Shown piece by piece: positions 3,476 through 37,570 of a stretch of 64,000 nt of DNA. Below the pieces are notes generated by a model, which saw only the letters and a program-made list of their open reading frames with translations, did not search any database and was not told the DNA's origin. The position numbers and the translations under genes were made by a program. This DNA is from Brevibacillus sp. (GTDB taxonomy: Bacteria; Bacillota; Bacilli; Brevibacillales; Brevibacillaceae): assembly GCA_017656235.1 (NCBI GenBank), contig JACDOF010000003.1, positions 124,001 to 188,000 of the forward strand, written 5' to 3'. How positions within the stretch are numbered: the stretch's first letter is position 1; each line of letters starts with the position of its first letter.

Positions 3476-4861
3476 ATGACCAAAGCGAGAAAACAAGACT
3501 GGATCAAAAAATCGTCGATAGCGGTTTTGCTCAGCACATCCCTGCTGATGTTCAGTCATGGTGGACAGGTGGTTGCAGCGTCTGCCACTCCGGCACAGGT
3601 GGTACAGCTTGCCAACGAACTGGTGGGTTCACCGTATCAGGCGAAAAGCAGCGGGCCCGAATCCTTTGACTCTGCCGGATATGTGGCCTATGTATACGAA
3701 AAACTTGGCGTAAACGTGAGTGACAGCATCTCCGGTTTGTATCATTCGGGACAAGCTGTAGACAAACAAGACATTCAACCGGGCGATGTACTGTTCTTTC
3801 ACACCAGCTCGGGGGCTTCCCTCAATTACGTCGGGATCTACACGGGCAACGATACGTTTGTATATGCTTCCCGCAGCCAAGGGAAAGTGATCGCCAAATC
3901 TTACTCCAGTGTGGCCAAAAACCTTGCTGCAGCACGTCGTTATATCAGTTCGCAGCAGTCGGAACAGCCTGCCTCTCAACCGGAGAACTCGCAAGATTCC
4001 TATCCGTCCGAATATTCAGCAAAAGTGGTGAACTTCGCCAAAGCAGCACTGGGCAAGCCGTATCAGTACGGCGCCAATGGACCGGACAGATTTGACTCTG
4101 CCGGATATGTCGCGTATGTGCTGGGGCAGGCAGGCGTCCAGGCTGATGACAGCATTTCCTCTCTGTATCGGATGGGACAAGCTGTTACGCTCGAGCAGGT
4201 ACAGCCGGGCGACGTGCTGTTCTTTAACTCCGGTTCGGGCGCGTCCCTCAACTACACGGGTATCTATGCGGGAAATGATCAGTTCCTCTACGCTTCCCGC
4301 AGCCAGGGGAAAGTCGTGACACAGCAGCTGTCCAAAGCAGCTGACCGGTTTGCCGGCGCCCGCCGCATTACACCCGCTGACACCGTAAAACCGCAACCTC
4401 CCGCAGGCGGAAATCAGGGTGATACAGTTTCCAATCCGAAGCAGCCGCAGGAGCAGGACCAGGCACCCGGAGCAGTGCTGGCAGACAAGATTATCGCAAC
4501 CGGCGAACGATTCCTGGGTACACCGTACAAGTTCGGTGCCGAGTATCCGAATTCCGGATATTTTGACTGCTCCAGCTTCACCCAGTATGTATACGGGCTG
4601 AACGGAATCAAGCTTCCGCGCAATTCCCGCCAGCAGTCCACGGTTGGCAAACAAATCTCCAAAAACGAGCTGCGCAGAGGGGACCTGGTCTTCTTCCGCT
4701 CCTACGGCAGCTCCTCTGACCGGATCACCCACGTGGCAATCTACGCCGGCAACGACCGCCTGCTGCATACCTACGGCAGCCCGGGCGTAACGTACAGCAA
4801 GTTCAGCGGTACTTCCTGGGAAGACCGTGTCGTGATGATGCGCCGCGTTCTTCCGGAGTAA
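3476..4861 (+). CDS. Secreted protein with three NlpC/P60-type domains, two of them catalytically degenerate
   Basis: 461 residues. An N-terminal signal peptide (about 1-35, ending near VVAAS) indicates secretion. Three NlpC/P60-like domains follow at about 40-157, 183-298 and 336-460, joined by Pro/Gln/Ser-rich linkers. NlpC/P60 enzymes are cysteine peptidases that cut peptidoglycan stem peptides. Domain 3 has the expected catalytic Cys365 (YFDCSSF) and His419 (ITHVAIY). Domains 1 and 2 carry FDSAGYVAYV, placing Ser66 and Ser208 at the Cys position, and Asn117 and Asn259 at the His position (SLNYVGIY, SLNYTGIY), so they are probably inactive and may bind cell wall. Start ATG 3476 follows AGGAGG at 3463-3468. 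Confidence 0.85.
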   Translation: MTKARKQDWIKKSSIAVLLSTSLLMFSHGGQVVAASATPAQVVQLANELVGSPYQAKSSGPESFDSAGYVAYVYEKLGVNVSDSISGLYHSGQAVDKQDIQPGDVLFFHTSSGASLNYVGIYTGNDTFVYASRSQGKVIAKSYSSVAKNLAAARRYISSQQSEQPASQPENSQDSYPSEYSAKVVNFAKAALGKPYQYGANGPDRFDSAGYVAYVLGQAGVQADDSISSLYRMGQAVTLEQVQPGDVLFFNSGSGASLNYTGIYAGNDQFLYASRSQGKVVTQQLSKAADRFAGARRITPADTVKPQPPAGGNQGDTVSNPKQPQEQDQAPGAVLADKIIATGERFLGTPYKFGAEYPNSGYFDCSSFTQYVYGLNGIKLPRNSRQQSTVGKQISKNELRRGDLVFFRSYGSSSDRITHVAIYAGNDRLLHTYGSPGVTYSKFSGTSWEDRVVMMRRVLPE

Positions 4862-14401: not shown

Positions 14402-14871
14402 CTCACTCCGTGGCCAACCACCGGCGGGGCTGAACCGTCCGCTCCGCACCCCCGAAGCGGGCGGGCGCAAAAAGCAGCGCTGCTGCGCCGTTTTGTCAGG
14501 GTTGCGCCCGTATGCCCCCGCTTCGGGATTGCTCCGCTGGGATGGTTGGCCAAGTCGTTCATTTGGAAAATGGCCGCTCTTCTGTCAGAACACGCTTTGT
14601 AAACAATCTGCAGGATATCAATGGCATCTTGTGTCGAACAGGGCACCGTACAGTGCTGAACGAGTTTCAAAACTCTCGCCTGAGACGAGTGCGGGCGATT
14701 TTTCGCCAGCGAACGGTTTGGCCAACCTGCCAGCGAAACAACGAATCCGCAGGGAAATCGCAGCGGCAACAGCGTCACGTCGGCAGCGGGACGTCGTTTT
14801 GACGCTGCCCCTGCGGATCGTCATGAAGCGGTCTTGGACTGCTTCTTCGCTGGTTGGCCACCGAGAGTGAG
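14402..14871 (+). mobile_element. Dispersed TIR element, complete copy A (470 bp)
   Basis: Ends are imperfect inverted repeats: CTCACTCCGTGGCCAACCA (14402-14420) and its complement with two extra bases at 14851-14871. Inside are two large palindromic arms. Arm 1: CCCGAAGCGGG (14451-14461) with CCCGCTTCGGG (14517-14527), containing GGGCGCAA/TTGCGCCC (14463-14470, 14502-14509) and the 12-bp palindrome at 14473-14484. Arm 2: ATCCGCAGGG (14745-14754) with CCCTGCGGAT (14809-14818). The sequence recurs, inverted, at 56124-56552 and in part at 46514-46770. No transposase or credible gene lies inside. It sits between the convergent 3' ends of ytoI and ytpI, together filling most of the 742-bp gap. 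It looks like a non-autonomous MITE; no clear target duplication is visible. Confidence 0.7.
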
Positions 14872-14916
14872 CGCGAAAAACGCCCCACTCGAGTTCACGA
14901 TACGTTGTCTCTCTGG

Positions 14917-14938
14917 GGGAACCAAAGGGTTCCCTTTT
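14917..14938 (+). terminator. Intrinsic terminator, plus strand
   Basis: GGGAACC (14917-14923) and GGTTCCC (14928-14934) with a 4-base loop, followed by TTTT. It probably ends ytoI transcription after the inserted repeat element. Confidence 0.6.
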
Positions 14939-14944
14939 CCGCTG

Positions 14945-14982
14945 AAAAAAAAGGACAACCGCAGGCATCGCAAACGGTTGTC
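14945..14982 (-). terminator. Intrinsic terminator of ytpI
   Basis: On the minus strand GACAACCG and CGGTTGTC form an 8-bp stem (14975-14982 with 14954-14961), followed by eight T (14945-14952 as A on plus). Confidence 0.8.
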
Positions 14983-15070
14983 TGAAGCGTGAGAATGTCA
15001 CACTGTCGATTATATAGTACAAACGGCACCTGCACCACAAAAAACGTTTGGCAGGGGCGGAAAAATCAAC

Positions 15071-15388
15071 CTATCCCTTTTCCGGCTGTTTTTCCGCTTC
15101 CCGCCACTGACGTCGATAGGTGAGGTAGCGGCGCGTACCGAATACCAGATTCACACCTCCTACGAACAGAAAAACGATGCTCACCATTACCCGAATGGTG
15201 GTCAGCGGATCATAGGTAAATTGGTTCACGCCAAAAAGGAGCAGCAGCAAACCGAGGGACATGTTCATCCTGCCCAGGAGCATCCGCGACTGCAGCGGGT
15301 GTATGCCGCTTCGACGCGCATTGACACTGTAGTACACACTGCCGGTCAGCGCGGCAATCAACCCGGTTATGTAAAAAGCGGCCCACAT
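15071..15388 (-). CDS. ytpI: YtpI-like membrane protein
   Basis: 105 residues with three hydrophobic segments (about 2-22, 42-60 and 65-84: FYITGLIAALTGSVYY, LGLLLLLFGVNQF, IRVMVSIVFLFVGGVNLVF) and a basic, charged C-terminus (RRYLTYRRQWREAEKQPEKG). Its place between ytoI and dnaE matches B. subtilis ytpI, whose function is unknown. ATG 15388 has AAAGGA upstream. It is transcribed toward the repeat element and ends at the terminator 14945-14982. Confidence 0.75.
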   Translation of the reverse strand: MWAAFYITGLIAALTGSVYYSVNARRSGIHPLQSRMLLGRMNMSLGLLLLLFGVNQFTYDPLTTIRVMVSIVFLFVGGVNLVFGTRRYLTYRRQWREAEKQPEKG

Positions 15389-15466
15389 GGATCATCGTTC
15401 CTTTCGTTTTCGTCCCTCCCATCCTACAAAATCAACCGCTGCCTGGTCAATCCAACCGATTGTATG

Positions 15467-15496
15467 TTCGTGTTTGGCTGAAACATTCGGTATAAT
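15467..15496 (+). promoter_or_regulatory. Candidate promoter of dnaE
   Basis: A consensus TATAAT at 15491-15496 lies 48 bp before the dnaE start. The best -35 at standard spacing is TTCGTG (15467-15472, 18-bp spacer), which is weak. Confidence 0.5.
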
Positions 15497-15544
15497 GATG
15501 AAGGAAGAAAAGGATGCGTAAGCGACCGAAAGAGGGGGAGTTGC

Positions 15545-18500
15545 GTGGATACTTCCTTTGTCCATCTGCATGTGCATACCGAGTACAGCTTGCTGGATGG
15601 TGCTGCTCGCATCGAGCAGTTGGTAGCAAGAGCAAAAGAACTGGGGATGCCTGCCCTGGCCATTACCGATCACGCCAACCTGTACGGAGCGATTCCGTTT
15701 TACAAGGCATGTCGAAGCGTCGGCATCAAGCCGATCATCGGCATGGAAGCATACCTGGCAGAGGGCAGCCTGACGGAGCGCCCGGCCCGCAACGCTCCGG
15801 CTCCGTTTCACCTGGTTCTGCTGGCAGAGAACATGACCGGCTATCGAAATCTGATCAAACTAAGCTCGATCGCGCATACGAAAGGCTTGCATCTGCTCCC
15901 CCGCCTGAACAAGGAAGTGCTTCAGAGACATGCGGAGGGGTTGATCGCCTTGAGTGCCTGCCGCGAGGGAGAAGTAACCAGGCTGTTGGCAGCGGGGGAA
16001 GTGGACGCCGCCCGACAGGCAGCGCGCTGGTATGAGCGGGTGTTTGGACCGGGCCGCTTTTACCTGGAGCTGCAGGATCACGGCACGGAATGGGAGCGCA
16101 GGCTGAATCAGCGCCTGCTCAGGCTTCACCAGGAGACAGGCATTCCTTTGATTGCGACCAACAACGTCCACTATGTACAGAAAAGCGACGCGAGATGGCA
16201 GGATGTGCTGCTTGCGATTAAAGAAGGAAAGGCGATCAATGAGGAAGACCGCAGCCGCTACGAGACGGATGAGTACTACCTGAAAAGCGGTGCGGAAATG
16301 GCCCGCCTGTTTGCCTATGCACCGGAAGCACTCCACAATACGCTGGCCGTGGCCGAGCGCTGCACCCTTGAACTTCAGTTTGGGCAGCCGATCCTTCCTC
16401 AGTTTGCTGTGCCGGAGGGAACCACTGCCGACGAGTATCTGCGTGCACTGTGTGAACAGGGATGCCGCGAACGGTACGGCGAATTGACCGCTGAAGTCCG
16501 TGAGCGGCTGGAGCACGAATTGTCGATCATTACCCGCACCGGTTTTACCGACTACTTTCTGATTGTGTGGGACTTTATGCGGTACGCCCACGAAAATGGC
16601 ATACCGACGGGACCGGGCCGCGGTTCGGCGGCCGGCAGCCTGGTTGCCTACGCCTTAAAGATTACCAATGTCGATCCACTCAAGCACCACCTGCTGTTTG
16701 AGCGCTTTTTGAATCCCGAGCGGATCAGCATGCCCGATATTGACATCGATTTCTCCGTGGAGAGGCGCGATGAAGTGATTCGCTACGTGGCAGAGAAGTA
16801 CGGGTACGATCGGGTGGCGCAGATCGTCACCTTTGGGACGATGGCGGCCCGCGCGGCTGTGCGAGACGTGGGGAGGGTGCTGGGCCTCTCGCTGGGGCTG
16901 GTCGACCGGGTGGCCCGGATGATTCCGGCCACGCCGGGAATGACCATCGACAAGGCACTGGCGCTCAACCCGGGGCTGTCTGCATTAATGGCTGAAAACA
17001 AGCAGGTGGCCCAACTGATCGAGGTAGCCAAGGGGTTGGAAGGATTGCCTCGCCACACCTCCACTCATGCGGCCGGCGTGGTGATTTCACGGGAACCGCT
17101 GACGGAATACGTGCCCCTGCAGGAGGGGGCAGAGGGACTTGCGCTGACCCAGTACCCGATGGATGTACTGGAGGAAATCGGACTGTTGAAGATGGATTTT
17201 CTGGGGCTGCGCAACCTGACCATTATCCAGGAGACGCTCACCATGCTGAAAAAACGCGGCATCGAGGTCGATCTGGATCGACTTCCTCCTGCGGACGAAA
17301 AGACGTTCCGCATGCTTGGCCGCGGAGAAACCACCGGCATTTTTCAACTGGAGTCTTCCGGCATGCGCAGCGTACTGCGCGAGCTGAAACCGGAGTCGAT
17401 CGACGATATTATCGCCGTACTTGCGCTCTACCGTCCCGGGCCGATGGAGATCATTCCGCAGTACATCCAGGCCAAGCACGGAAAAAAGAAAGTGACCTAC
17501 GCCCATCCTGACCTGGAGCCGATTCTCAAAGAGACGCACGGTTTCATCCTGTACCAGGAGCAGATCATGCAGATATCGTCACGGATGGCTGGATTTACCC
17601 TGGGAGAGGCAGACATCCTGCGCCGCGCCGTGGGCAAGAAGAAGCGGGAGTTGTTGGCCGAACAGCGGGCCAAGTTTGTTGCCGGCAGTGTGCGCCAAGG
17701 GTACGACGAACAGTTGGCGAACCGGATTTACGACTTGATCGTCCGGTTTGCCGATTACGGTTTTAACAAAGCCCATTCGGTTGCCTATGCCGTGATCGCG
17801 TATCAAATGGCGTATTTGAAGGCCAATTATCCGTTGATGTTCATGGCGGCTCTGTTGTCGATGTCGATTGGCAGTCAAACGAGGATAGCCGAGTATGTCG
17901 AAGAGGCCCGCCGCCTTGGTTTGGCCGTCAAGCCGCCGGACATCAACGAGAGTGAAGCGCTGTTTACGGTGCAGGAAAACGCGATTCGTTTTGGTTTGGC
18001 TGCAGTCAAGAACGTTGGTTACGGCGCGATTGAATCAATTGTTCAAGAGCGGAAGCGGCGGCCTTTCCGCGACCTGCACGACTTCTGCTCACGTGTGGAC
18101 AGCCGTCTGGTTAACCGTCGGGTGATCGAATCGCTGATCTCATGCGGTGCGTTGGACAGCCTGCCCGGACATCGTGCGCAGCTGCTGGTGGTGCTGGACG
18201 AAGCGCTGGAAAAGGGGGCGGCCCGGCGGAGCATGCGGGCAGGAGGACAAATCGATCTGTTTTCGTTGGAAGGCACAGACGTCACGGAAGCGGGAGACCG
18301 CCAACCGGGGGAGGGGATTGATCCGTCCCGTTATCCCGAAGTACCGCCGTTTTCGCGAAACCAACAGCTAAAAGAGGAGCGGGAATTGCTGGGGGTCTAT
18401 CTGTCCGGCCACCCCTTGGACGATTATCCCCATCTGACCAACCGGCAGGGCGTGCAGCAGATCTCCCGGCTGCCGGAACTGGCGAAAAACCAGACGGTAA

Positions 18501-19006
18501 AAGTGGTGGGCATGATCGTCGATGTCAAGCGAATCCAGACCAAGAAAGGGGAGCCGATGGCCTTTCTCACCCTGGAGGACCGTACAGCACCCGTAGAAGT
18601 GGTGGTCTTTCCGCAGGTGTTCGCCGCCCATCTCGAATTGTTGGAGAAAGAGCGGCTGGTTGTGCTGGAGGCACGCGTCGATGTACAGGACGATACGGTC
18701 AAACTGCTCGCTTCCCGCTTTTGGGACGTGACCACGCTGCCGCGCCCGTCGACGGAGACGGTTTTGTTTGTCAAAATATCAGCCGAACAGGAACAGGATT
18801 CGACACTGAACGAATTGAAGCGGTTGTTTGTCGAACGAAAGGGAACGATTCCCGTGCTGATCTACTACGAAAGTAAAAAGCAGACGATACGGCTGCCGGA
18901 CGATTGGCGGGTGGAAGTGGACGAGGCGTTCTTGACAAGGGCGCGCGCTATTGTGGGGAGAAATGGTGTGGTGCAAAAAGAATTGCCGATAAACGGAGGA
19001 GGATGA
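15545..19006 (+). CDS. dnaE: DNA polymerase III subunit alpha, DnaE type
   Basis: 1153 residues. Replicative C-family polymerase; in low-GC Gram-positives DnaE extends RNA primers before PolC takes over. Order: PHP domain (about 5-200, with FVHLHVHTEYSLLDG and TDHANLYG), polymerase core with GPGRGSAAGS near 355-364, the catalytic PDIDIDF with Asp400/Asp402, and KMDFLGLRNL with Asp551, then helix-hairpin-helix (about 790-830) and a C-terminal OB fold (about 985-1030). PHP metal ligands look retained. The start is GTG 15545 with AGAGGGGGAG before it. It ends at a terminator that overlaps its stop codon. Confidence 0.97.
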   Translation: MDTSFVHLHVHTEYSLLDGAARIEQLVARAKELGMPALAITDHANLYGAIPFYKACRSVGIKPIIGMEAYLAEGSLTERPARNAPAPFHLVLLAENMTGYRNLIKLSSIAHTKGLHLLPRLNKEVLQRHAEGLIALSACREGEVTRLLAAGEVDAARQAARWYERVFGPGRFYLELQDHGTEWERRLNQRLLRLHQETGIPLIATNNVHYVQKSDARWQDVLLAIKEGKAINEEDRSRYETDEYYLKSGAEMARLFAYAPEALHNTLAVAERCTLELQFGQPILPQFAVPEGTTADEYLRALCEQGCRERYGELTAEVRERLEHELSIITRTGFTDYFLIVWDFMRYAHENGIPTGPGRGSAAGSLVAYALKITNVDPLKHHLLFERFLNPERISMPDIDIDFSVERRDEVIRYVAEKYGYDRVAQIVTFGTMAARAAVRDVGRVLGLSLGLVDRVARMIPATPGMTIDKALALNPGLSALMAENKQVAQLIEVAKGLEGLPRHTSTHAAGVVISREPLTEYVPLQEGAEGLALTQYPMDVLEEIGLLKMDFLGLRNLTIIQETLTMLKKRGIEVDLDRLPPADEKTFRMLGRGETTGIFQLESSGMRSVLRELKPESIDDIIAVLALYRPGPMEIIPQYIQAKHGKKKVTYAHPDLEPILKETHGFILYQEQIMQISSRMAGFTLGEADILRRAVGKKKRELLAEQRAKFVAGSVRQGYDEQLANRIYDLIVRFADYGFNKAHSVAYAVIAYQMAYLKANYPLMFMAALLSMSIGSQTRIAEYVEEARRLGLAVKPPDINESEALFTVQENAIRFGLAAVKNVGYGAIESIVQERKRRPFRDLHDFCSRVDSRLVNRRVIESLISCGALDSLPGHRAQLLVVLDEALEKGAARRSMRAGGQIDLFSLEGTDVTEAGDRQPGEGIDPSRYPEVPPFSRNQQLKEERELLGVYLSGHPLDDYPHLTNRQGVQQISRLPELAKNQTVKVVGMIVDVKRIQTKKGEPMAFLTLEDRTAPVEVVVFPQVFAAHLELLEKERLVVLEARVDVQDDTVKLLASRFWDVTTLPRPSTETVLFVKISAEQEQDSTLNELKRLFVERKGTIPVLIYYESKKQTIRLPDDWRVEVDEAFLTRARAIVGRNGVVQKELPINGGG

Positions 19007-19024
19007 GCGATCTCCTCCTTTTTT
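18995..19024 (+). terminator. Intrinsic terminator of dnaE
   Basis: GGAGGAG (18995-19001) and CTCCTCC (19012-19018) followed by six T. The dnaE stop codon (19004-19006) lies in the loop. Confidence 0.85.
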
Positions 19025-19040
19025 CGCTTGATTCGGCATG

Positions 19041-19068
19041 TTTACAGATGGAAACGATTTGATATAAT
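19041..19068 (+). promoter_or_regulatory. Sigma-A promoter of the malic enzyme operon
   Basis: TTTACA (19041-19046), 16-bp spacer, TATAAT (19063-19068). It starts right after the dnaE terminator and feeds the malic enzyme gene and probably the regulator and acc genes behind it. Confidence 0.75.
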
Positions 19069-19083
19069 GAGTACATGGTGGAT

Positions 19084-19102
19084 TAAGTGGTCAGACCACT
19101 TA
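19084..19102. promoter_or_regulatory. Perfect 19-bp palindrome, likely operator for the FadR-type regulator
   Basis: TAAGTGGTCAGACCACTTA is a 9-1-9 perfect inverted repeat centred on 19093, 15 bp downstream of the -10 box, where a repressor would block transcription. Its core TGGTCAGACCA fits the FadR-subfamily operator pattern TNGTNNNACNA. A FadR-type GntR protein is encoded 1.5 kb downstream in the same cluster. Confidence 0.65.
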
Positions 19103-19176
19103 GAGAAAATGTGTAAAAAATGGAAAATACTGCTTGATAGAAGGAATATCCGACAGGTAAGATTGGAGTGGTGACG

Positions 19177-20421
19177 GTGTCCAAACTGAGAGAAGAAGCG
19201 TTGGAACTTCACAAAAAGCACCAAGGGAAACTGGAAACAGTGACAAAAGTGCCGATCCGCAACGCGCACGACCTGAGCCTGGCCTACTCCCCCGGTGTGG
19301 CGGAACCGTGCAAGGAAATCTATGACGATCCGACCAAAGTGTACGAGTACACCATCAAGGGAAATCTGGTCGCGGTGGTAAGCGACGGGACGGCCGTGCT
19401 CGGACTCGGCAATATCGGACCGGAAGCGGCAATGCCCGTGATGGAAGGGAAGGCAGCTTTGTTTAAGGCGTTCGCAGGCGTTGACGCTTTTCCAATCTGC
19501 CTGAATACGTCTGACCCGGAGAAAATCATCGAGACGGTAAAATTGTTGGAGCCGACCTTCGGCGGCGTGAACCTGGAAGACATCGCGGCGCCGGCCTGCT
19601 TTGAGATTGAAGAGCGGCTGAAGCGGGAGACCAAGATTCCGGTTTTCCACGACGACCAGCACGGGACAGCGATTGTGACGGCAGCCGGACTGATCAACGC
19701 GCTGCGCGTGGTCGACAAGAAACTGGAGGAGATCCGCGTCGTCGTGAACGGTGCCGGTGCGGCAGGAATTGCCATCATCAAACTGCTCTTGAGCATGGGC
19801 GTACGAGATATTATCATGTGTGATACCAAAGGAATCATCTACGAAGGCAGATCATTCGGGATGAACGCGGTCAAGGAACAGGTGGCGAAACTGACCAACC
19901 GGTCCAGACTGAGCGGCGACTTGGCCGATGCGATGAAAGGCGCTGACGTTTTCATCGGCGTATCAGTAGCTGGCGCCGTCACCATGGAGATGGTAGAGTC
20001 GATGAACCGCGATCCGATCATCTTCGCCATGGCCAACCCGGTGCCGGAAATCATGCCCGACGAGGCCAAACAGGCGGGGGCGGCCGTGATTGGAACAGGC
20101 CGATCCGACTTTCCCAACCAGGTCAACAACGTTCTTGCTTTTCCTGGCATCTTCCGCGGCGCGCTGGATACATACGCCACCAACATCAACGAAGAGATGA
20201 AACTGGCGGCCGTATACGCGATCGCCGATCTGATCACGCCGGAAGAGCTGACCGCAGACCGGGTGATTCCGGCTCCCTTTGATCCGCGCGTGGCTCCGCA
20301 CGTGGCAGCCGCCGTGGCCAAGGCAGCGATGGAAACCGGAGTGGCACGGCGCACGGTGGATCCGGAAGAAGTGAAGAAGCGCACCACCCAGCTATCGTAT
20401 ATCCATCATACGCAGGCATAG
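19177..20421 (+). CDS. ytsJ: Malate dehydrogenase (oxaloacetate-decarboxylating), malic enzyme
   Basis: 414 residues, bacterial short malic enzyme that converts malate to pyruvate and CO2 with NAD(P) reduction. Visible motifs: SLAYSPGVAEPC near the N-terminus, the substrate/metal region FHDDQHGTAIVTAAG, the nucleotide fold VVNGAGAAGIAI and FAMANPVPEIMPDEA. I use GTG 19177 because GGAG at 19165-19168 is at the right distance and the resulting SKLREEALELHKKHQGKL matches the family N-terminus; two further GTG codons at 19168 and 19171 overlap the ribosome site. It is transcribed from 19041-19068, through a palindromic operator. Similar placement (dnaE-ytsJ-accDA-pfkA-pyk) is found in B. subtilis. 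Confidence 0.92.
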   Translation: MSKLREEALELHKKHQGKLETVTKVPIRNAHDLSLAYSPGVAEPCKEIYDDPTKVYEYTIKGNLVAVVSDGTAVLGLGNIGPEAAMPVMEGKAALFKAFAGVDAFPICLNTSDPEKIIETVKLLEPTFGGVNLEDIAAPACFEIEERLKRETKIPVFHDDQHGTAIVTAAGLINALRVVDKKLEEIRVVVNGAGAAGIAIIKLLLSMGVRDIIMCDTKGIIYEGRSFGMNAVKEQVAKLTNRSRLSGDLADAMKGADVFIGVSVAGAVTMEMVESMNRDPIIFAMANPVPEIMPDEAKQAGAAVIGTGRSDFPNQVNNVLAFPGIFRGALDTYATNINEEMKLAAVYAIADLITPEELTADRVIPAPFDPRVAPHVAAAVAKAAMETGVARRTVDPEEVKKRTTQLSYIHHTQA

Positions 20422-20620
20422 AGGTACCCAAACATCGTGTGGGTCATCAACAAGTGTACGACATGAGCGCAAGATCCGGTGTACGGCGAGAAGGCAAGGC
20501 ATTCTGCATTCTCGCCATTCGTGTGCACTCGTCAAACTGCCCGGTTCACGGCGCCTTTCGGACCACAGCAGCGGGGAAAACACGGGCCCTCAAGCTCGAT
20601 ACAGGAGGGAATGGACAAAC

Positions 20621-21292
20621 GTGTTCGATTCCTTGGAAAATCGCAAAGTATACGAGGATATTCTGCTGCAAATCCATGAGATTGTGAAACGAAACAATTT
20701 GCGTGTCGGTGACAAGCTCCCCTCCGAGCGGGAGTTGTCTGACCAGTTGGGAGTGGGGCGGTCATCGGTACGCGAAGCCCTGCGGGCCCTGGAACTGCTC
20801 GGGCTGATCGAAACGCGCAGAGGGGAAGGAACCTTCCTCAAGCACTACCGGCACAATCGGCTGATCGACGTACTGGGTTTCTTTATTCTGCGCGACTACA
20901 AGACCAAAAAAGATCTGGTGGAAATGCGCAAGCTGCTTGAACTGGACGCGGTGCGGTTAGCCTGCCGTCGAGCGACCGAAAAGCATTTTGAAGAGATGGA
21001 GCGTATCCTTGCCGCCGCCTGGGAGCGGGTGGAGCGAGGCGAAATCCCGACGGAGGAAGATTACCTGTTCCACCGCGTCATCTGTCGCTCCAGCCGCAAT
21101 TCGATTCTGCACCGGATCTGGGCCCCGCTCGTCGAGTACAGTGACACGGTGCGAAGCACCTCCTTGGCCAGAGAGGGGCGTGCCAAAGCAGCTTTGATCG
21201 AACACGAGCAGATCATGCTGGCCATTCGCAGCGGCGATGAACAGACAGCCGCCAGGCGCATGCAGGAGCACCTGGAGAACAGCAAGCTGTAA
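20621..21292 (+). CDS. GntR-family transcriptional regulator, FadR subfamily
   Basis: 223 residues. The N-terminal winged helix-turn-helix (about 8-75) includes the GntR signature LRVGDKLPSERELSDQLGVGRSSVREALRAL; the helical C-terminal FCD domain (about 80-215) contains the Asp/His positions typical of metal- or ligand-binding FadR proteins (ELDAVRLACRR, FHRVICRSS, EHEQIMLAI). It probably senses an organic acid or acyl compound. The start is GTG 20621 after GGAGGG. It lies between the malic enzyme and accD-accA, and the palindrome at 19084-19102 is a plausible target, giving local control of carbon flow from malate/pyruvate to malonyl-CoA. The ligand is unknown. The 199-bp gap before it shows no convincing terminator. 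Confidence 0.85.
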   Translation: MFDSLENRKVYEDILLQIHEIVKRNNLRVGDKLPSERELSDQLGVGRSSVREALRALELLGLIETRRGEGTFLKHYRHNRLIDVLGFFILRDYKTKKDLVEMRKLLELDAVRLACRRATEKHFEEMERILAAAWERVERGEIPTEEDYLFHRVICRSSRNSILHRIWAPLVEYSDTVRSTSLAREGRAKAALIEHEQIMLAIRSGDEQTAARRMQEHLENSKL

Positions 21293-21369
21293 GTTTGCGG
21301 CGACGAGAATCGCTGTGATATGATGATGCAGGTTGCACATGTTTGTCTGAGGTATAAGGAGGAAGCCTT

Positions 21370-21552
21370 ATGTGGACTGTCATCTACATCGCTCCCAGTG
21401 CGAAAATCGCCGAACGCATTCAGCAACGTTTGACAAGTGAAGGGTTTTTGGTCAAGGTGCGTGAGGCGGGAGTGTCCAGGCAGTACGAGATTCTCGTACC
21501 GGAGAGTGAGGTTCACGAAGTCCAAGAGGTGCTCGGCACGATCCTTCACTAA
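21370..21552 (+). CDS. Small DUF2007-like protein, 60 aa
   Basis: 60 residues with ferredoxin-like alternation of strands and helices: MWTVIYIAPSAKIAERIQQ, then EGFLVKVREAG and YEILVPESEVHEVQEVL. Proteins of this kind between a FadR-type regulator and accD are common in related Firmicutes and are annotated as DUF2007 or hypothetical. The Shine-Dalgarno (AAGGAGG) is excellent. The gene is 21 bp upstream of accD, so it is probably co-expressed with carboxyltransferase. Function unknown. Confidence 0.65.
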   Translation: MWTVIYIAPSAKIAERIQQRLTSEGFLVKVREAGVSRQYEILVPESEVHEVQEVLGTILH

Positions 21553-21573
21553 CCCACATTGTGAGGTGTTACT

Positions 21574-22458
21574 GTGCTAAAAGATCTTTTTGGCAAGAAG
21601 CGAAAGTTCGCCACTGTTCCCAGTCAGCAGCTGGGAAAGCTTGCTGTCGAACCGAAGGAGAAAGAAGTCCCGGAAGGGCTGATGCATAAATGCCCCCTGT
21701 GCGGCACGATCCATTACTCCAAAGATCTGGAGAAAAATCTGCGGGTCTGCAAAGGGTGCCAACACCACTTTCCGATGTCGGCCCAGGAGCGGGTCCAATC
21801 CATTCTGGATGATGGCGTGTTTGTGGAGGAGTTTGACCGCGAGATGACCTCGGCAAACCCGCTGGGCTTCCCAGGTTATGAGGAAAAGCTGGAGAAGGAT
21901 CGGGACGCTACCAGCCTGAACGAGGCCGTGGTCACCGGAGAGGGGCGAATAAAGGGAACGCCGGTGATTCTGGGCGTGATGGACCAGCGCTTCCGCATGG
22001 GCAGCATGGGGTCTGTGGTTGGTGAAAAGATTACCCGCGCCATCGAACGGGCGATCGAACGAAAGTACCCGTTTATCCTGTTTTCGGCGTCAGGCGGAGC
22101 GCGTATGCAGGAAGGCGTACTCAGCCTGATGCAGATGGCCAAAACAAGCGCTGCGCTGGCTGTGCTGGCTCGGGAGCGGCTGCTCTTCATCTCGGTGCTG
22201 ACCAATCCGACGACGGGCGGCGTGTCTGCCAGCTTCGCCTCGCTTGGAGATATCAACATTGCCGAACCGGGAGCACTGATCGGGTTTGCCGGCCGTCGGA
22301 TCATCGAACAGACGATTCGCCAGGAGCTGCCAAAGGACTTCCAGACGTCTGAATTCCTGCTCAAGCATGGGCAGCTCGACATGGTGGTTCACCGCAAAGA
22401 GCTGCGCGATACCTTGGGCAAGCTGCTGGAGATGCATACTGTCCGGGAGGGAGTGTAA
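21574..22458 (+). CDS. accD: Acetyl-CoA carboxylase carboxyltransferase subunit beta
   Basis: 294 residues. With AccA it transfers the carboxyl group from carboxybiotin to acetyl-CoA, giving malonyl-CoA for fatty acid synthesis. An N-terminal four-cysteine zinc ribbon is present: Cys40, Cys43, Cys59 and Cys62. The crotonase-fold core has [12 protein letters not shown] and [11 protein letters not shown]. The start is GTG 21574, giving [12 protein letters not shown], with GAGGTG upstream. The stop is one base from the accA start, indicating translational coupling. Confidence 0.97.
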
Positions 22459-22459
22459 G

Positions 22460-23416
22460 ATGGCCGGAGAACTGCCGTTTGAAAAGCCGCTCGTGGAATT
22501 GCAAGAAAAGATTAAAGAATTGCGGAGGTTTACGGAGGAAAAGGGCATTGACTTTTCCGATGAAGTGGTTCGCCTGGAGAAGAAGGCCAAGGATCTGGCG
22601 GAACAGATTTACGGAAATCTTACGCCGTGGCAGCGCGTGCAGATTGCCCGCCACGCGGAACGGCCAACTACGCTCGACTACATCCGGATGATCTTTACCG
22701 ATTTCGTCGAACTGCACGGTGACCGCCTGTACGGCGACGATCCGGCCATCGTCGGCGGGATCGCCAAGCTGGATGGTCGCCCGGTAACCGTAATCGGCCA
22801 CCAAAAAGGAAAAGATACAAAAGAGAACATTACCCGCAACTTCGGCATGCCTCACCCCGAGGGATACCGCAAGGCGCTGCGTCTGATGCAGCAGGCCGAC
22901 AAGTTTGGCCGTCCGATTATCTGTTTCATCAACACGTCCGGCGCTTATCCGGGCAAGGCGGCGGAAGAGCGCGGCCAAAGTGAGGCGATCGCGCGCAACC
23001 TGCGGGAAATGGCCGGGTTCCGTGTCCCGATCATCTGTGTCGTCACTGGTGAGGGAGGCAGCGGCGGTGCACTGGCGATAGGTGTAGGCAATCATATCTA
23101 CATGCTGGAAAACGCGGTCTATTCCGTTATTTCGCCGGAAGGGGCAGCCGCCCTGCTGTGGAAAGACGCCAGCCTGGCCATGCGGGCAGCGGAGACGATG
23201 AAGATTACCGCTCCTGACCTGCTGGAACTGGGTGTGATTGATAAAGTCATTGCCGAGCCGTTTGGCGGGGCCCATCGCGATCCGGTGTTACAGGCGCAGT
23301 TGGTCAAGGAAGCGCTGACGGAAGGGTTGGAACAGCTTCTGCAAATGACTCCGGAGCAACTGGTACAGGATCGTTACAACAAGTTTAAACAGATCGGTCA
23401 GTACGCTTCTCTGTAG
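22460..23416 (+). CDS. accA: Acetyl-CoA carboxylase carboxyltransferase subunit alpha
   Basis: 318 residues from ATG 22460; the open frame continues upstream inside accD but the ribosome site GGGAGGGAG at the accD end decides the start. Typical AccA features: N-terminal helical region ([15 protein letters not shown]), [15 protein letters not shown], the [11 protein letters not shown] motif and the glycine-rich [15 protein letters not shown] of the crotonase fold. Partner of AccD; the biotin parts (accB, accC) are not in the window. A terminator overlaps the stop. Confidence 0.97.
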
Positions 23417-23437
23417 AGAGAAGCGTTTCTTTTTTTC
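23403..23437 (+). terminator. Intrinsic terminator of the acc unit
   Basis: ACGCTTCTCT (23403-23412) and AGAGAAGCGT (23417-23426) with a GTAG loop holding part of the accA stop codon, followed by TTCTTTTTTT. Confidence 0.9.
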
Positions 23438-23577
23438 GCTTCCGCCAACCGCCAGAATCTGCTACAATCGTAGTCGTGTCAGAGAACTCGGCGGAGTAAC
23501 GCGAATCTTTGGAAAAGTATAGCACATTTCAGAAGGTGCGCAAAAAGAGTATAACAGATAGTTCAGTAATGGTATAA

Positions 23578-24621
<1,044 letters not shown>

Positions 24622-24735
24622 CACTGGGGAAAGTACCTGCCAAACAAGAAAGAAAGCGCCAACCGCGCCGAGTGACGGCGGAAAAGGTGTATTTGACAAA
24701 CAAGGCATGGGGGAAAACGCGAGGGAGGTATCACT

Positions 24736-26490
24736 GTGTTGAGAAAGGCAAAAATCGTATGTACGATCGGCCCTGCGTCCGAATCCGTAGAGACGCTGAA
24801 ACGACTTTTGACCGCGGGAATGAATGTCGCAAGGTTAAACTTTTCCCACGGATCCCATGAGGAGCACGCCGCGCGGATTCGCAACATCCGTCAGGCCGGA
24901 CGGGAACTGGGTGTGCAGGTAGCGATCCTGCTTGATACCAAGGGACCGGAAATACGCACAGGGGTGCTTGCTGCCGAGCAGGTGGAACTGGTCGAAGGAA
25001 ACACGATCACATTGACCACGGAAGAGGTGCCCGGTACGGCGGAGCGGGTTTCGATTACATACAAAGACCTGTACCGGGATGTGGAGGTAGGCAGCACCAT
25101 CCTGATAGACGACGGACTGATCGGCTTACGCGTGGAAAAGATTGAGGGAAGCGAGATCATTTGCCGGATCAAAAACGGCGGCATCCTCAAAAGCAAAAAA
25201 GGCGTCAACGTCCCGGGAGTGAAAATAAACCTGCCGGGCATCACCGAGAAAGATTCGGAGGACATTTTGTTCGGTATCCGCGAAGGAGTCGATTTCATTG
25301 CTGCGTCGTTTGTCCGCAAAGCGGCAGACATTCTGGAAATCAGGGAAATCCTGGAGCAGCATCAGGCGAAGATCGACATTATCGCCAAGATTGAAAACCA
25401 GGAAGGCGTCGACAATGTGGACGAGATCCTGACCGTTGCCGATGGCCTGATGGTGGCGCGCGGGGACCTCGGCGTAGAAATCCCTGCGGAAGAAGTGCCC
25501 CTTTTGCAGAAAAAACTGATTCAAAAGTGCAATGAGTTGGGAAAACCGGTGATTACCGCCACCCAAATGCTTGACTCCATGCAGCGCAATCCACGGCCTA
25601 CGCGGGCCGAGGCAAGCGACGTGGCCAATGCCATCCTGGATGGTACGGACGCCATCATGCTGTCCGGTGAAACAGCCGCCGGAAAGTATCCCGTGGAGTC
25701 GGTGGAGACGATGAACCGCATCGCACTGCGTGCCGAACAGGCCCTGAACTACCGGGAGATCTTGTACACGCAGTCCAGCCGCAGACAAGTGACCATTACG
25801 GATGCAATCAGCCAGGCGGTGGCCAATGCTGCCCTTGATCTGGAGGCGGCGGCGATTGTCACCGCGACAGAGAGCGGCCATACGGCGCGGATGGTTTCCA
25901 AGTACCGCCCCAAGGCCCCCATCGTGGCTGTGACGCCGCACGAAGGAGTCATGCGGCGCCTCTCGCTGGTCAATGGCGTTTATCCGGTGCTTGGCAAAAC
26001 GGCCTCTACCACGGATGAGATGCTGGAGATTTCCGTCCGTGAAGCGGTACAGGCGGGGTACGTCCGCCATGGCGACCTGGTGGTCATTACGGCTGGAGTG
26101 CCGGTGCGGGAGAGCGGGACGACCAATCTGCTCAAGATCCACGTCATCGGAGATGTGATCGCCAAAGGACAGGGGATCGGCCGCAAAGTGGTGACCGGCA
26201 GGGTGGTTATCGCCCGCTCGGCCGACGAAGCACTGCAAAAGATGGAAGATGGGGCCATTCTGGTCACCTACGGTACAGACTCGGACATGATTGCCGCCTT
26301 TGAACGGGCGGGAGCGGTCATTACCGTGGAGGGCGGCTTGACTTCCCATGCCGCCATAGTCGGACTAAACCTGAACGTGCCGGTGATTGTCGGTGTCGAA
26401 CGGGCCACAGAAGTCTTGGCCGACGGACAGCTGGTTACGGTCGACCCGGAACGGGGCCATATCTACACCGGATTTGCCCGTGTGCTGTAG
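24736..26490 (+). CDS. pyk: Pyruvate kinase with C-terminal PEP-utiliser domain
   Basis: 584 residues, the long Bacillus form. It makes ATP and pyruvate from PEP. The N-terminal barrel shows [46 protein letters not shown] and [11 protein letters not shown]; the C-terminal extra domain (about 480-584) has [21 protein letters not shown] with the T-S-H-A motif of PEP-utilising domains. GTG 24736 and TTG 24739 are adjacent possible starts behind GGGAGG. It is probably co-transcribed with pfkA and ends at a terminator at 26499-26519. Confidence 0.97.
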
Positions 26491-26498
26491 ACGGGAAA

Positions 26499-26519
26499 GG
26501 GACGGGGGTCACCCGTCCC
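26499..26519 (+). terminator. Intrinsic terminator of pfkA-pyk
   Basis: GGGACGGG (26499-26506) and CCCGTCCC (26512-26519), a perfect 8-bp stem with a 5-base loop. The T-run is weak (TTCTGTACTTTT). Confidence 0.65.
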
Positions 26520-26575
26520 TTCTGTACTTTTGTGTTACAATAGGAGTAAGAGAAAAGCTAAAGGAGAGGGTCGTT

Positions 26576-27046
26576 GTGGACACGACTAGCTGGCGAACCA
26601 TTCAGTTTCGCGTGCGGTACGGGGAGACCGATCAGATGGGAGTGGTCTACCACGCCAACTACCTCAACTGGTTTGAATGGGGACGAACCGAGCTGATTCG
26701 GGAGGCAGGTTTTTCGTACCGGCAGGTTGAAGAGAGAGGGGTACTGCTCCCGGTGACTGATGCTTCCCTTACCTACAAGCGCCCGGCCCGTTATGATGAC
26801 GTGGTGGAAGTTCGCACCTGGATTGACCAGTTTTCAACGGTGAGGCTGGTGTTTGCGTATGAAATCCACCGACCGGAAGACGGGACGCTTTTGGTAACCG
26901 GGCAGACCAGCCACGTGTTTACCGACCCCAATCTGAGACCTGTCCGCCTGGACCGGCAGCTGCCGGAATTGTACGAGCGGCTTCGCGCCGAATACGAGCG
27001 CGGCGGCAAGCGGCTCCGCGCTGCTCATCTTGAAGATAGGGCGTGA
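26576..27046 (+). CDS. Acyl-CoA thioesterase of the YbgC/4-hydroxybenzoyl-CoA type
   Basis: 156 residues, single hotdog fold. The YbgC signature RVRYGETDQMGVVYHANYLNWFE is present with the catalytic Asp in ETDQMG; the rest (GRTELIREAGFSY, TGQTSHVFTD) fits. Likely hydrolyses short acyl-CoA or acyl-ACP thioesters in the cytosol; the natural substrate is not known. The start is GTG 26576 behind AAAGGAGAGG. A frame extending to 26387 overlaps pyk and is rejected. TACAAT at 26536-26541 may be its -10 box. fxsA follows after 6 bp. Confidence 0.88.
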   Translation: MDTTSWRTIQFRVRYGETDQMGVVYHANYLNWFEWGRTELIREAGFSYRQVEERGVLLPVTDASLTYKRPARYDDVVEVRTWIDQFSTVRLVFAYEIHRPEDGTLLVTGQTSHVFTDPNLRPVRLDRQLPELYERLRAEYERGGKRLRAAHLEDRA

Positions 27047-27052
27047 TCGTTC

Positions 27053-27448
27053 ATGTTTCGCATTCTTTTCCTGTTGTTTGTCATCGTCCCTGTCATCGAA
27101 TTGTGGGGATTGATTGCGGTAGGGCGTGTCATTGGGGCCGCCTGGACCGTTTTGCTGGTGCTGGCGACAGGCGTCGCCGGTGCCTGGTTGGCCAAACAGC
27201 AAGGGCTGCAGGTATTGCGGCTGACGCAGCTGCAGCTGTCCCGGGGGCAGATGCCGACCGATGCGCTGCTTGACGGGTTTATGATCCTGATAGGCGGTCT
27301 CTTGCTTTTGACCCCTGGATTTTTTACGGATACAGTCGGTTTTTTGCTGCTTGTGCCGTACACGCGGATGATGGTGCGCCACGTACTGAAGCAGTGGCTG
27401 TGGCATCTGATCCGAACGGGGAAAGTGCGCATCCTGTTCAGGCGTTAG
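27053..27448 (+). CDS. fxsA: FxsA family membrane protein
   Basis: 131 residues with four hydrophobic stretches (about 1-20, 24-45, 72-92, 94-106) typical of FxsA: IVPVIELWGLIAVGRVIG, TVLLVLATGVAGAWLAKQQG, and GGLLLLTPGFFTDTVGFLLLVP. In E. coli FxsA affects phage exclusion; its normal role is unclear. It lies 6 bp after the thioesterase gene with a weak ribosome site, so translation is probably coupled. The corresponding B. subtilis gene is ytzA. Confidence 0.85.
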   Translation: MFRILFLLFVIVPVIELWGLIAVGRVIGAAWTVLLVLATGVAGAWLAKQQGLQVLRLTQLQLSRGQMPTDALLDGFMILIGGLLLLTPGFFTDTVGFLLLVPYTRMMVRHVLKQWLWHLIRTGKVRILFRR

Positions 27449-27480
27449 AAAAGCCCTCCTGTCCGATAGAACAGGGGGGC
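27446..27480 (-). terminator. Intrinsic terminator of ytvI
   Basis: GCCCTCCTGT (27453-27462) and ACAGGGGGGC (27471-27480). On the minus strand the stem is followed by TTTTC, so it serves the ytvI-like gene; on plus there is no T-run, but it may also help end fxsA. Confidence 0.65.
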
Positions 27481-27511
27481 CGGGCGGATCGGCTGCAGCG
27501 CTTTCCCGTGG

Positions 27512-28651
27512 TCAATCCCGCTGGACCGGCTTTCCGACGATGTACCTTGTGATGTCATGGAAGACATGGGCTTTGATCAAAGCGTTGATCACCACCAGAC
27601 TGACGGGACCGATGATCAGCCCCAGGAACCCGAACAGATTGAGACCGATAAACAGCGCGACCAGCGTTAGCAGCGGATCGAGTCCCACATTGTCTGCCAC
27701 CACTTTCGGCTCGATGATCTGGCGGAAGATGACCACAATCCCGTAGAGAATCGACAGTCCGATAACCAGCCCGTACTCACCGTTGAAAAAAGCGTAGACG
27801 ATCCAGGGTACAAAGACCGTCCCGGTCCCCAGGTACGGCAGCAGATCGACCAGTCCGGTCAGCAGCCCGATGGTCACCGCGTACTCCACCCGCAGAATGA
27901 GCAGACCGATGATGACGATCGCTGCCGTGATGGAAATCAGGGTGACCTGCGCCTTGATGAAGCCCGTCAGTGCACTGCGCAGATCACGCGCCACCTGATC
28001 GAGGCGCGAGTTGACTCTCCTGGGCAGCAGGCGGCGAAAGCGGGCCTCCCACAGATAGTAATCCTTGCTCAAAAAGAAGGCGGCCAGCAGGGAGATCACC
28101 AGGATCGTGGCCATGTCGGGCAGTGAGAGCACCCAGTTTTTGACCAGCGTAAGCAAGTTGAAGACCAATTCCTTGCCGGTGCTGGACAGGGTGTTTAAGG
28201 CATTGGTCACGTTGTCCTGAATCGCAGTTTGATAGCTCTCGTCAAGCTGGGCGTAGAAGAAGGCGAACCGCTCGTACAAGCCGATCAGTACATCCTGGGC
28301 AATCACCTTCTTCAGATGGTTGTTTAATTCGTTGATCAGGACAGGCAGTCGGTTGATCAGTTCGCCAATCTCCACTGCCACTGCCGCGATCAAAAGAGTA
28401 GCCAGGCCGACAAGCAGAGTCAGTACCACCAACAGCGCGATGGTCACGGACAGCCAGCGGGGGATTCGCCCCTTTTCAGTCAACCAGGTGACAGGACGGT
28501 TGATCAGGAGGGCGATGACTAAGGCGATCAGAAATGGGAAAAGTAAGGGTACCAGGAATTGGACTGCAAAATACACGGCGATAACCAACAGCGCAACCCA
28601 AAGAAAGCGAATGACTTGAAACAAGCGAGTCACCCAGTTGTCAGGTGTCAG
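27512..28651 (-). CDS. ytvI: AI-2E family transporter / YtvI-like sporulation membrane protein
   Basis: About 379 residues, seven to eight hydrophobic segments, with the family features FLWVALLVIAVYFAVQFL, SLLAAFFLSKDYY, GLVDLLPYLGTG and FIGLNLFGFLGLIIGPV. AI-2E/YdiK-type exporters are poorly defined; YtvI is an integral membrane protein of the sporulation regulon in B. subtilis. The start is unusual: the Shine-Dalgarno GGAGGG (28658-28663 on plus as CCCTCC) is 6 bases from a CTG at 28651 (LTPDNWVTRLF); the nearest in-frame ATG, 28681, has no ribosome site and lies upstream of it. Convergent with fxsA. Confidence 0.8.
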   Translation of the reverse strand: MTPDNWVTRLFQVIRFLWVALLVIAVYFAVQFLVPLLFPFLIALVIALLINRPVTWLTEKGRIPRWLSVTIALLVVLTLLVGLATLLIAAVAVEIGELINRLPVLINELNNHLKKVIAQDVLIGLYERFAFFYAQLDESYQTAIQDNVTNALNTLSSTGKELVFNLLTLVKNWVLSLPDMATILVISLLAAFFLSKDYYLWEARFRRLLPRRVNSRLDQVARDLRSALTGFIKAQVTLISITAAIVIIGLLILRVEYAVTIGLLTGLVDLLPYLGTGTVFVPWIVYAFFNGEYGLVIGLSILYGIVVIFRQIIEPKVVADNVGLDPLLTLVALFIGLNLFGFLGLIIGPVSLVVINALIKAHVFHDITRYIVGKPVQRD

Positions 28652-28810
28652 AACGATCCCTCCTTGTGTGCGGGCAACCATTTGCGGGCAAACCACCATA
28701 TGTATAAAAAACCAAATAACGTTTCTTGTAACTATTATGACGTATCCTTAACAAGAGAGGCAAGATGGGGGCATGTCGGGCACAGCAGTTTACACTTTAT
28801 ACATTTTTCA

Positions 28811-36445: not shown

Positions 36446-37570
36446 ATGATCCGTTTTGAGCAGGTAACCAAAACCTATGCCGACGGGACCGTGGCTCTCA
36501 AGGGGATCGACCTCACGATTCACGAGGGGGAGTTGGTCACCTTGATTGGCCCGAGCGGCTGCGGGAAAACGACGACAATGAAAATGATCAACAGACTTGT
36601 CGAACCGACGTCGGGAAAGATTTGCGTCAACGGAGAGGATATTTCCAGGGTTGATCCGGTAATGCTTCGCCGCAACATTGGATATGTGATTCAGCAGATA
36701 GGTCTTTTCCCCCATATGACCATCAAAGACAACGTTTCCATTGTGCCGCGCCTGAAAAAGATGGACAAGGCGAAATATGAAAAACGGGTGGACGAACTGC
36801 TCGATTTGGTCGGCTTGGACCCTGATCAATACCGAAACCGCTACCCATATGAGTTAAGTGGCGGCCAGCAGCAAAGAATCGGCGTTATCCGGGCACTGGC
36901 TGCTGAGCCGCCAATTATTCTGATGGACGAACCGTTCAGTGCACTGGACCCGATCAGTCGTGAACAACTGCAGGATGAATTGATCCGGCTGCAGGATGAA
37001 GTGAAAAAAACGATTGTGTTTGTCTCGCACGACATGGATGAGGCATTGAAGATTGCGGATCGAATTGTGTTGATGAAGGCAGGCGAAATCGTCCAGATTG
37101 ATACCCCTGACCGGATGCTGCGTTACCCGAAAAACGATTTTGTCAGGGCCTTTATCGGCGAAGATCGACTGAGCAACGCGGAGGTGTTGACGGTCGAAGA
37201 CGTGATGGTTAGCAACCCGGTAACCGTCTACCAATCGCGTGGTCTGGCCACCGCTGCCAAGTTGATGAAGCAGCGCCGTGTGAACACGCTGCTGGTAGTC
37301 GACAAAAACCACGTTCTGCAAGGAATCGTAACCAAAGACGTGCTGGAAGTGCACTTCAAACAGGAAGAACTGTCGCTGCGAGAGATCATGCTCACCGACA
37401 TCTCCGTTGTTCAGGCCGGGACGAGTGTGGTGGAGGCAGTGCAAACGATGAAGCGGCACGGGCTGAGCTCTTTGCCGGTTGTCGATGCAGACGGGAGGCT
37501 GGCTGGTCTGGTCACGAACTCCAGCCTGATTGATGCCTTGCTAAAAAAATGTAAAGGGGGGGCGTCATGA
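36446..37570 (+). CDS. opuCA: Quaternary-amine/osmoprotectant ABC transporter ATPase
   Basis: 374 residues. ABC domain (about 1-240): Walker A GPSGCGKTT, signature LSGGQQQR, Walker B ILMDEP, plus H-loop VSHDMDEAL. Two CBS motifs follow (about 250-370: VMVSNPVTVYQSRGL, GIVTKDVL; MLTDISVVQAG, GLVTNSSLI), the mark of OpuCA/OpuBA-type ATPases, where CBS domains gate activity by ionic strength or nucleotide (c-di-AMP in some relatives). ATG 36446 follows GAGAGGTG. Its stop overlaps the permease start (ATGA). Substrate class (glycine betaine, carnitine or choline) cannot be told from this gene alone. Confidence 0.9.
   Translation: MIRFEQVTKTYADGTVALKGIDLTIHEGELVTLIGPSGCGKTTTMKMINRLVEPTSGKICVNGEDISRVDPVMLRRNIGYVIQQIGLFPHMTIKDNVSIVPRLKKMDKAKYEKRVDELLDLVGLDPDQYRNRYPYELSGGQQQRIGVIRALAAEPPIILMDEPFSALDPISREQLQDELIRLQDEVKKTIVFVSHDMDEALKIADRIVLMKAGEIVQIDTPDRMLRYPKNDFVRAFIGEDRLSNAEVLTVEDVMVSNPVTVYQSRGLATAAKLMKQRRVNTLLVVDKNHVLQGIVTKDVLEVHFKQEELSLREIMLTDISVVQAGTSVVEAVQTMKRHGLSSLPVVDADGRLAGLVTNSSLIDALLKKCKGGAS

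Follow-up and report, generated by a model that had tools for sequence, protein, structure and literature searches.

A conserved 19-bp palindrome as the very probable operator of a FadR-subfamily regulator of malic enzyme and acetyl-CoA carboxylase genes in Bacilli

The perfect 19-bp palindrome TAAGTGGTCAGACCACTTA at positions 19084-19102 of the 64-kb stretch of DNA analysed here (the window) is very probably the operator bound by a GntR/FCD protein whose gene lies in the operon behind it. This protein would act as a ligand-released autorepressor of its own gene and of the genes for malic enzyme (mae), a conserved 60-aa frame (orf60) and the acetyl-CoA carboxylase carboxyltransferase subunits (accD, accA). 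Binding, repression and ligand are deduced from the DNA and from its conservation in relatives. A dimer of the regulator would bind the site at approximately +10 to +28 and stop RNA polymerase leaving the promoter. Such a block near the transcription start would repress malic enzyme, orf60, accD and accA and, by autoregulation, the regulator itself. The DNA would be released by a ligand bound in the FCD domain; for this lineage, a small carboxylate on a divalent metal is the likeliest candidate. Release would then raise malic enzyme, which yields pyruvate and NADPH, together with the carboxyltransferase making malonyl-CoA.

A sigma-A type promoter is present on the + strand at 19041-19068 (TTTACA-16-TATAAT, 11 of the 12 consensus positions, with a TG before the -10 element), behind an intrinsic terminator of the upstream gene dnaE (18995-19028, + strand). 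The layout from promoter to palindrome is kept in relatives. The promoter predicts a transcription start at about 19075, which places the palindrome some 10-28 bases 3′ of the start, and the position originally claimed for the palindrome, between the promoter and the malic enzyme gene, proved correct. All genes of the unit are on the + strand. The first is mae (19177-20421, GTG start), whose open reading frame opens at 19168 and with which relatives align from 19177. It is followed by gntR for the regulator of 223 aa (20621-21292), orf60 (21370-21552), accD for the beta subunit (21574-22458) and accA for the alpha subunit of the carboxyltransferase (22460-23416). Domain and family searches agreed with the earlier gene calls of malic enzyme, GntR regulator with FCD domain, AccD and AccA. 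No Pfam family matched orf60, which is kept in many relatives, also in those without gntR. An intrinsic terminator with a 10-pair stem and a T-run (23403-23436, + strand), overlapping the end of accA, is probably the end of the transcription unit. Between 19018 and 23403 no + strand terminator was found, nor was any + strand promoter-like match in 21200-23500. Judged from these elements, mae-gntR-orf60-accD-accA would most simply be one apparent operon with co-transcribed genes. Weak + strand promoter-like matches (9/12) occur at 19134, 19789 and 20612. One such match overlaps the start of gntR, so that some separate expression of this gene is possible.

The palindrome is an inverted repeat about one central A, with the core TGGTCAGACCA at 19088-19098, and as an operator it has no strand of its own. 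TGGTCNGACCA occurs once in the window as against a mean of 0.09 in 100 shuffles; nine of the 100 shuffled windows contain one copy. A search of the corresponding 3.6-Mb genome, which the original prediction had proposed as a check, found the 17-mer AAGTGGTCAGACCACTT to be unique. With up to three mismatches to AAGTGGTCAGACCACTT, the same genome holds three other single-strand places and one near-palindrome (C6:977-993, locus L013), which lies within an open reading frame and is considered a chance match rather than a second site. The E. coli LldR box is AAnTGGTCnGACCAnTT (PMC10272880; this and the other papers are cited from excerpts), and positions 19085-19101 fit it at 14 of 14 defined positions. 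When the window was scanned with this box, the next best place reached 12 and all others at most 11. A candidate second operator inside gntR (20732-20748, 12 of the 14 LldR box positions) is not conserved and is probably due to chance, since in 60 relatives gntR matches the box at 8-11 of 14 positions at best. A near-match at 37240-37250 falls within a reading frame, and a search for RNA families over 14500-28700 gave no match at gathering score. The original prediction had pointed to a match of the core with the loose FadR-subfamily pattern TNGTNNNACNA. As this pattern occurs at 493 places in the genome, a match to it alone means nothing, and we rejected it as evidence. The operator reading is carried by the complete LldR/FadR-type box together with its phylogenetic distribution.

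Conservation was followed with the regulator, not the site, as the first bait. From 149 related genomes that were searched, 60 clusters were read, and 20 more were added, 14 chosen for missing the exact site and six for variety, giving 80 different genomes. The first 60 passed over some comparable matches, and nine of those homologs were fetched later. Allowing up to two changes in the ten arm positions, a site was present no more than 420 bp from mae (64) or gntR (13) in 77 of the 80 genomes. In two of the remaining three, the contig breaks off at the regulator, and the site precedes mae on a different contig. In the third (L219, 2340-3190), promoter and operator are kept, mae is decayed and gntR-accDA follow; here the site is 771 bp upstream. 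Eighty named loci were also read, and every one of the 68 named clusters among them has the site. TGGTCNGACCA is absent from the 12 named loci with GntR homologs outside such clusters and likewise from all nine loci of the homologs fetched later, which also lie outside. The named loci (L134-L213) repeat some of the 80 genomes, so that repeats are included in the 145 sites and 155 proteins used below. Over the 145 sites, positions 3, 4 and 5 from the centre are invariant, and 138 sites have TGGTCNGACCA exactly. A promoter with at least 9/12 consensus positions was found for 133 of them, and the site lies 3′ of the -10 element in 132 of these 133. The median distance of the site centre past the -10 element is 22 bp (5th-95th percentile 17-30; 133 sites), compared with 25 in the window. 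Seventeen of the 145 sites stand directly before gntR, and in clusters without malic enzyme the site heads gntR-accDA. This distribution suggests that gntR and accDA are the constant targets, malic enzyme being often, not always, in the unit. Control of the operon by regulator and operator, as originally proposed, is borne out insofar as the site goes with regulator and operon across the class, but malic enzyme is not a constant target.

To cover the class, 398 genomes were scanned for the exact 13-mer GTGGTCWGACCAC and, by profile, for the regulator. A profile E value of 1e-50 or better defined a clear ortholog, a cut-off that was set by eye and is too strict. Clear orthologs were found in 149 genomes and the 13-mer in 145, in 140 of them as a single copy; the reversed control pattern occurred in 20 of the 398. 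GTGGTCWGACCAC is present in 132 of the 149 genomes with a clear ortholog versus 13 of the 249 without one. This leaves 17 genomes with ortholog and no exact site, 13 with site and no ortholog and 236 with neither, counts which are not independent events as the genomes are related. In each of the 17 ortholog genomes without the exact 13-mer, a close variant heads the operon (three, plus 14 of 14 fetched). Six of the 13 site-only genomes have the site directly before a gene for a GntR protein of 140-150 aa and accD, and one (G363; locus L247, 2812-4760) has kept operator, mae and accDA, but a GntR gene was not found in the stretch from mae to accD. Two have the 13-mer upstream of genes for FadR_C-domain proteins (L105 and L106, around 1501), in one it lies within dnaE and in another within an unrelated reading frame; G198 and G238 were left unassigned. 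The six genomes with operator, short GntR protein of 140-150 aa and accD belong to one family (L238-L243), and the short form tested (L241) gave no FCD match.

Below the ortholog cut-off, we read the accD locus of 26 hand-picked genomes with 1.5 kb on either side, a range that left some mae promoters uncovered. In 25 of them no GntR gene was found near accD, and the accD locus has no core; mae, orf60 or both are often near accD in the loci without GntR. The one exception is G054 (family f17), where accD is preceded by a divergent GntR and TAATTGGTCTGACCACTTA follows a TATAAT. A divergent GntR before accD is found in all 20 genomes read from this family (two genera, G054 included). In each of them the core TGGTCTGACCA, with T instead of G at position 6, lies 29-54 bp before GntR, and the variant operator is TTGGTCTGACCA in 20 of 20 genomes checked. 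The f17 regulators are shortened, give approximately 1e-33 to 1e-43 in the profile search and are divergent orthologs. As the cut-off of 1e-50 had filed them under neither site nor ortholog, the association between site and regulator is wider than the fourfold count. The box in the f17 loci L283 and L287-L305 is TAATTGGTCTGACCA, with PdhR/LldR-like arms in place of GTGGTC.

The regulator of the window consists of an N-terminal GntR winged helix (PF00392, 3.6e-18) and a C-terminal FCD domain (PF07729, 1.6e-26). Its predicted structure has a mean pLDDT of 87.5 with helices through 81-220. PDB fold matches of the model to FCD proteins have TM-scores of approximately 0.4-0.6, the best of them including 6az6, 7u5q, NanR, DhdR, PmiR and CGL2915 (approx. 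0.5-0.6). The palindrome consensus of the FadR subfamily is TKGT-N3-ACMA (PMC4494728), and the site fits it with TGGT-CAG-ACCA. By domain, fold and box the protein is a member of the FadR (FCD) subfamily of GntR regulators. It is not FadR proper, the acyl-CoA sensor: FadR_C (PF07840) is absent among its Pfam matches at E 0.001, and the protein carries the Asp and three His in the FCD core that mark metal-dependent FCD sensors (D147, H151, H195, H217), metal-ligand residues that E. coli FadR lacks. The designation as a FadR-type GntR regulator therefore holds for the subfamily and not for FadR itself. The protein also scores under the curated NCBIfam cut-offs of FadR, LldR, PdhR and NanR.

Three E. 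coli regulators come close to the system without being identical to it. The NCBIfam LldR model covers residues 7-219 of the window protein, but the score is 103 bits against a curated cut-off of 311, and LldR, a lactate-responsive member of the FadR subfamily, regulates lactate use in another operon. The FadR box aaCTGGTCnGACC(T/A)Gtt (PMC9329746) shares the core TGGTCnGACC with the window site, and the main DNA-contact residues of FadR (PMC4494728) are kept in the window regulator. In contrast to FadR, however, 117 of the 145 sites have G/C rather than C/G at position 6 from the centre, the window protein has metal residues that FadR does not (PMC7674646), and it scores 47.6 against a cut-off of 189 and is without FadR_C. 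The box of the pyruvate-responsive PdhR, AATTGGTnnnACCAATT (PMC7660256), has the same symmetry and spacing, and the f17 orthologs have just such arms. PdhR differs in its targets and at position 6, which is T/A in its box as against G/C in the window, and the window protein scores 77 against the PdhR cut-off of 330. The metal site of three His with Asp/Asn is common to FCD sensors of the CitO, DgoR, TM0439 and CGL2915 type, the ligand being citrate for CitO (PMC4746285) and galactonate for DgoR (PMC7674646). The same 13-mer is contained in GTGTGGTCAGACCACAC, the predicted operator of MSMEG_0596 from Mycobacterium smegmatis (PMC2018728), which is a prediction in another phylum, compared here by its operator sequence. 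A search of a plasmid collection gave one 3% match that is not relevant.

The similarity of the boxes raises the question of which protein reads the operator. LldR, PdhR and FadR boxes share the core, and the genome encodes 10 further matches to the regulator protein, so that cross-recognition is possible. Another FCD regulator of the cell, sensing lactate, pyruvate or fatty acids, might read the site with gntR as a mere target. We regard this as very unlikely, as the site co-occurs with the ortholog of the operon's own regulator, stands before gntR in clusters lacking mae, and does not occur in the clusters without GntR that were read (1.5 kb on each side of accD). Moreover, 140 of the 145 genomes with the site have a single copy. 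The direction of control is a separate matter. Activators do not normally act downstream of the -10 element, and the 132 of 133 sites found 3′ of it make it most improbable that the regulator activates the operon. Some FCD proteins are activators, e.g. CitO (PMC4746285).

The palindrome is also transcribed as part of the leader, its distance from the promoter hardly varies, and its RNA could fold into a hairpin. A stem-loop near the 5′ end of the mRNA might stabilize the transcript or bind a protein, for instance the carboxyltransferase. The pattern of conservation speaks for DNA recognition instead. As positions 3, 4 and 5 are invariant in the 145 sites, no compensatory change supports an RNA stem there, and position 6 is non-Watson-Crick in 26 of the 145 (G-G in 16, G-A in six, others). 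Moreover, the sequence equals a published protein-DNA box and accompanies a DNA-binding protein, and in other genomes the same 13-mer is found upstream of the two genes for FadR_C proteins. A role as an RNA element is accordingly highly improbable, and repression by the operon's own GntR/FCD protein remains the reading that we favour.

Across the 155 aligned regulator proteins (repeats included), the two halves of the preferred repressor differ in conservation. The mean majority fraction is 0.87 for residues 28-73 (winged helix) versus 0.43 for residues 98-220 (FCD). The residues that never vary among the 155 include S35, E36, R37, R47, R51, E52, G68 and G70. We take R37, R47 and G68 to be the counterparts of FadR R35, R45 and G66, assuming an offset of two. 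The latter are among the listed DNA-contact residues of FadR (PMC4494728). We also looked for DNA-reading residues that change with the base at position 6; the 28 deviating sites revealed no clear residue change.

In the sensor half, D147, H151, H195 and H217 of the window protein align with the D/H/H/H metal site of 2di3 (CGL2915), whose three-His metal site has been described (PMC4746285). This alignment predicts a metal-held small carboxylate as the likely ligand in the lineage of the window; malate, pyruvate and citrate as candidates are guesses. Of the 155 proteins, 67 carry the full D-H-H-H set, 14 have part of it and 74 lack all three His. With so many relatives lacking the metal pocket, a ligand held by metal cannot be the releasing signal in all of them. 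Among the 88 proteins without the full set, 50 combine Phe at 151 with Tyr at 195, and only 10 have the complete F-Y-Y. FadR has Phe149, Tyr193 and Tyr215 at the matching places and no metal ligands (PMC7674646). The FCD match itself, 1.6e-26 in the window, weakens in other clades to 2e-10, 1e-4 and 0.02, and elsewhere, as in the 147-aa form, there is no match below 0.1. The predicted structure of the 147-aa form is of low confidence (pLDDT 68.9). Separating the metal set from the rest needs four changes on a quick AccD tree, in which 47 of 145 inner branches are weak. The alignments suggest that DNA half and operator are kept while the sensor half changes or shrinks in relatives. It is conceivable, though we would stop short of calling it probable, that in Bacilli a near-frozen operator and DNA-reading head control accDA through a replaceable sensor, the input signal having changed several times with the output unchanged. 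The sensor would then be a metal/carboxylate pocket in the lineage of the window, a metal-free pocket in many Bacillaceae and almost nothing in the proteins of 140-150 aa. The metal-free pocket, often with Phe/Tyr at the metal positions, possibly senses acyl-CoA or malonyl-CoA.

No GntR regulator of mae-accDA was found in the literature searched, with RegPrecise outside the search. The main text of PMC4494728 does not contain the words malic, accD or carboxylase; its supplementary regulon lists (18 FadR-subfamily proteins of Bacilli) were outside the search. The excerpts of PMC4259882 and PMC4742526 hold nothing on a mae-gntR-accDA regulon. As far as we found in this literature, the regulon is without prior description. 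The operator is of an ordinary type; what is unusual is that the sensor has turned over while the operator stayed nearly frozen. With its nearly invariant operator and variable sensor domain, the system makes it possible to test directly how a transcription factor can change its input signal at a fixed target. For many families of Bacilli, our analysis provides a very probable transcriptional regulator of accDA, often together with malic enzyme, and predicts its exact operator. If the operator reading is true, the regulator couples malic enzyme to the initial step of fatty-acid synthesis. The short site could also be used to report on the malonyl-CoA pathway.

Some loci carry a further operator copy directly before accD, 3′ of gntR, which suggests that accDA can be a target in its own right. 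Such a copy was observed in 19 of the 68 named clusters, at approximately 4184-4213 in each (L152, L155, L158-L161, L172, L175, L177, L180, L183, L187, L191, L195, L199, L201, L203, L211 and L213), and in two of the 80 clusters of the genome set (L087 and L093). Most of these loci are of the Neobacillus/Mesobacillus type.
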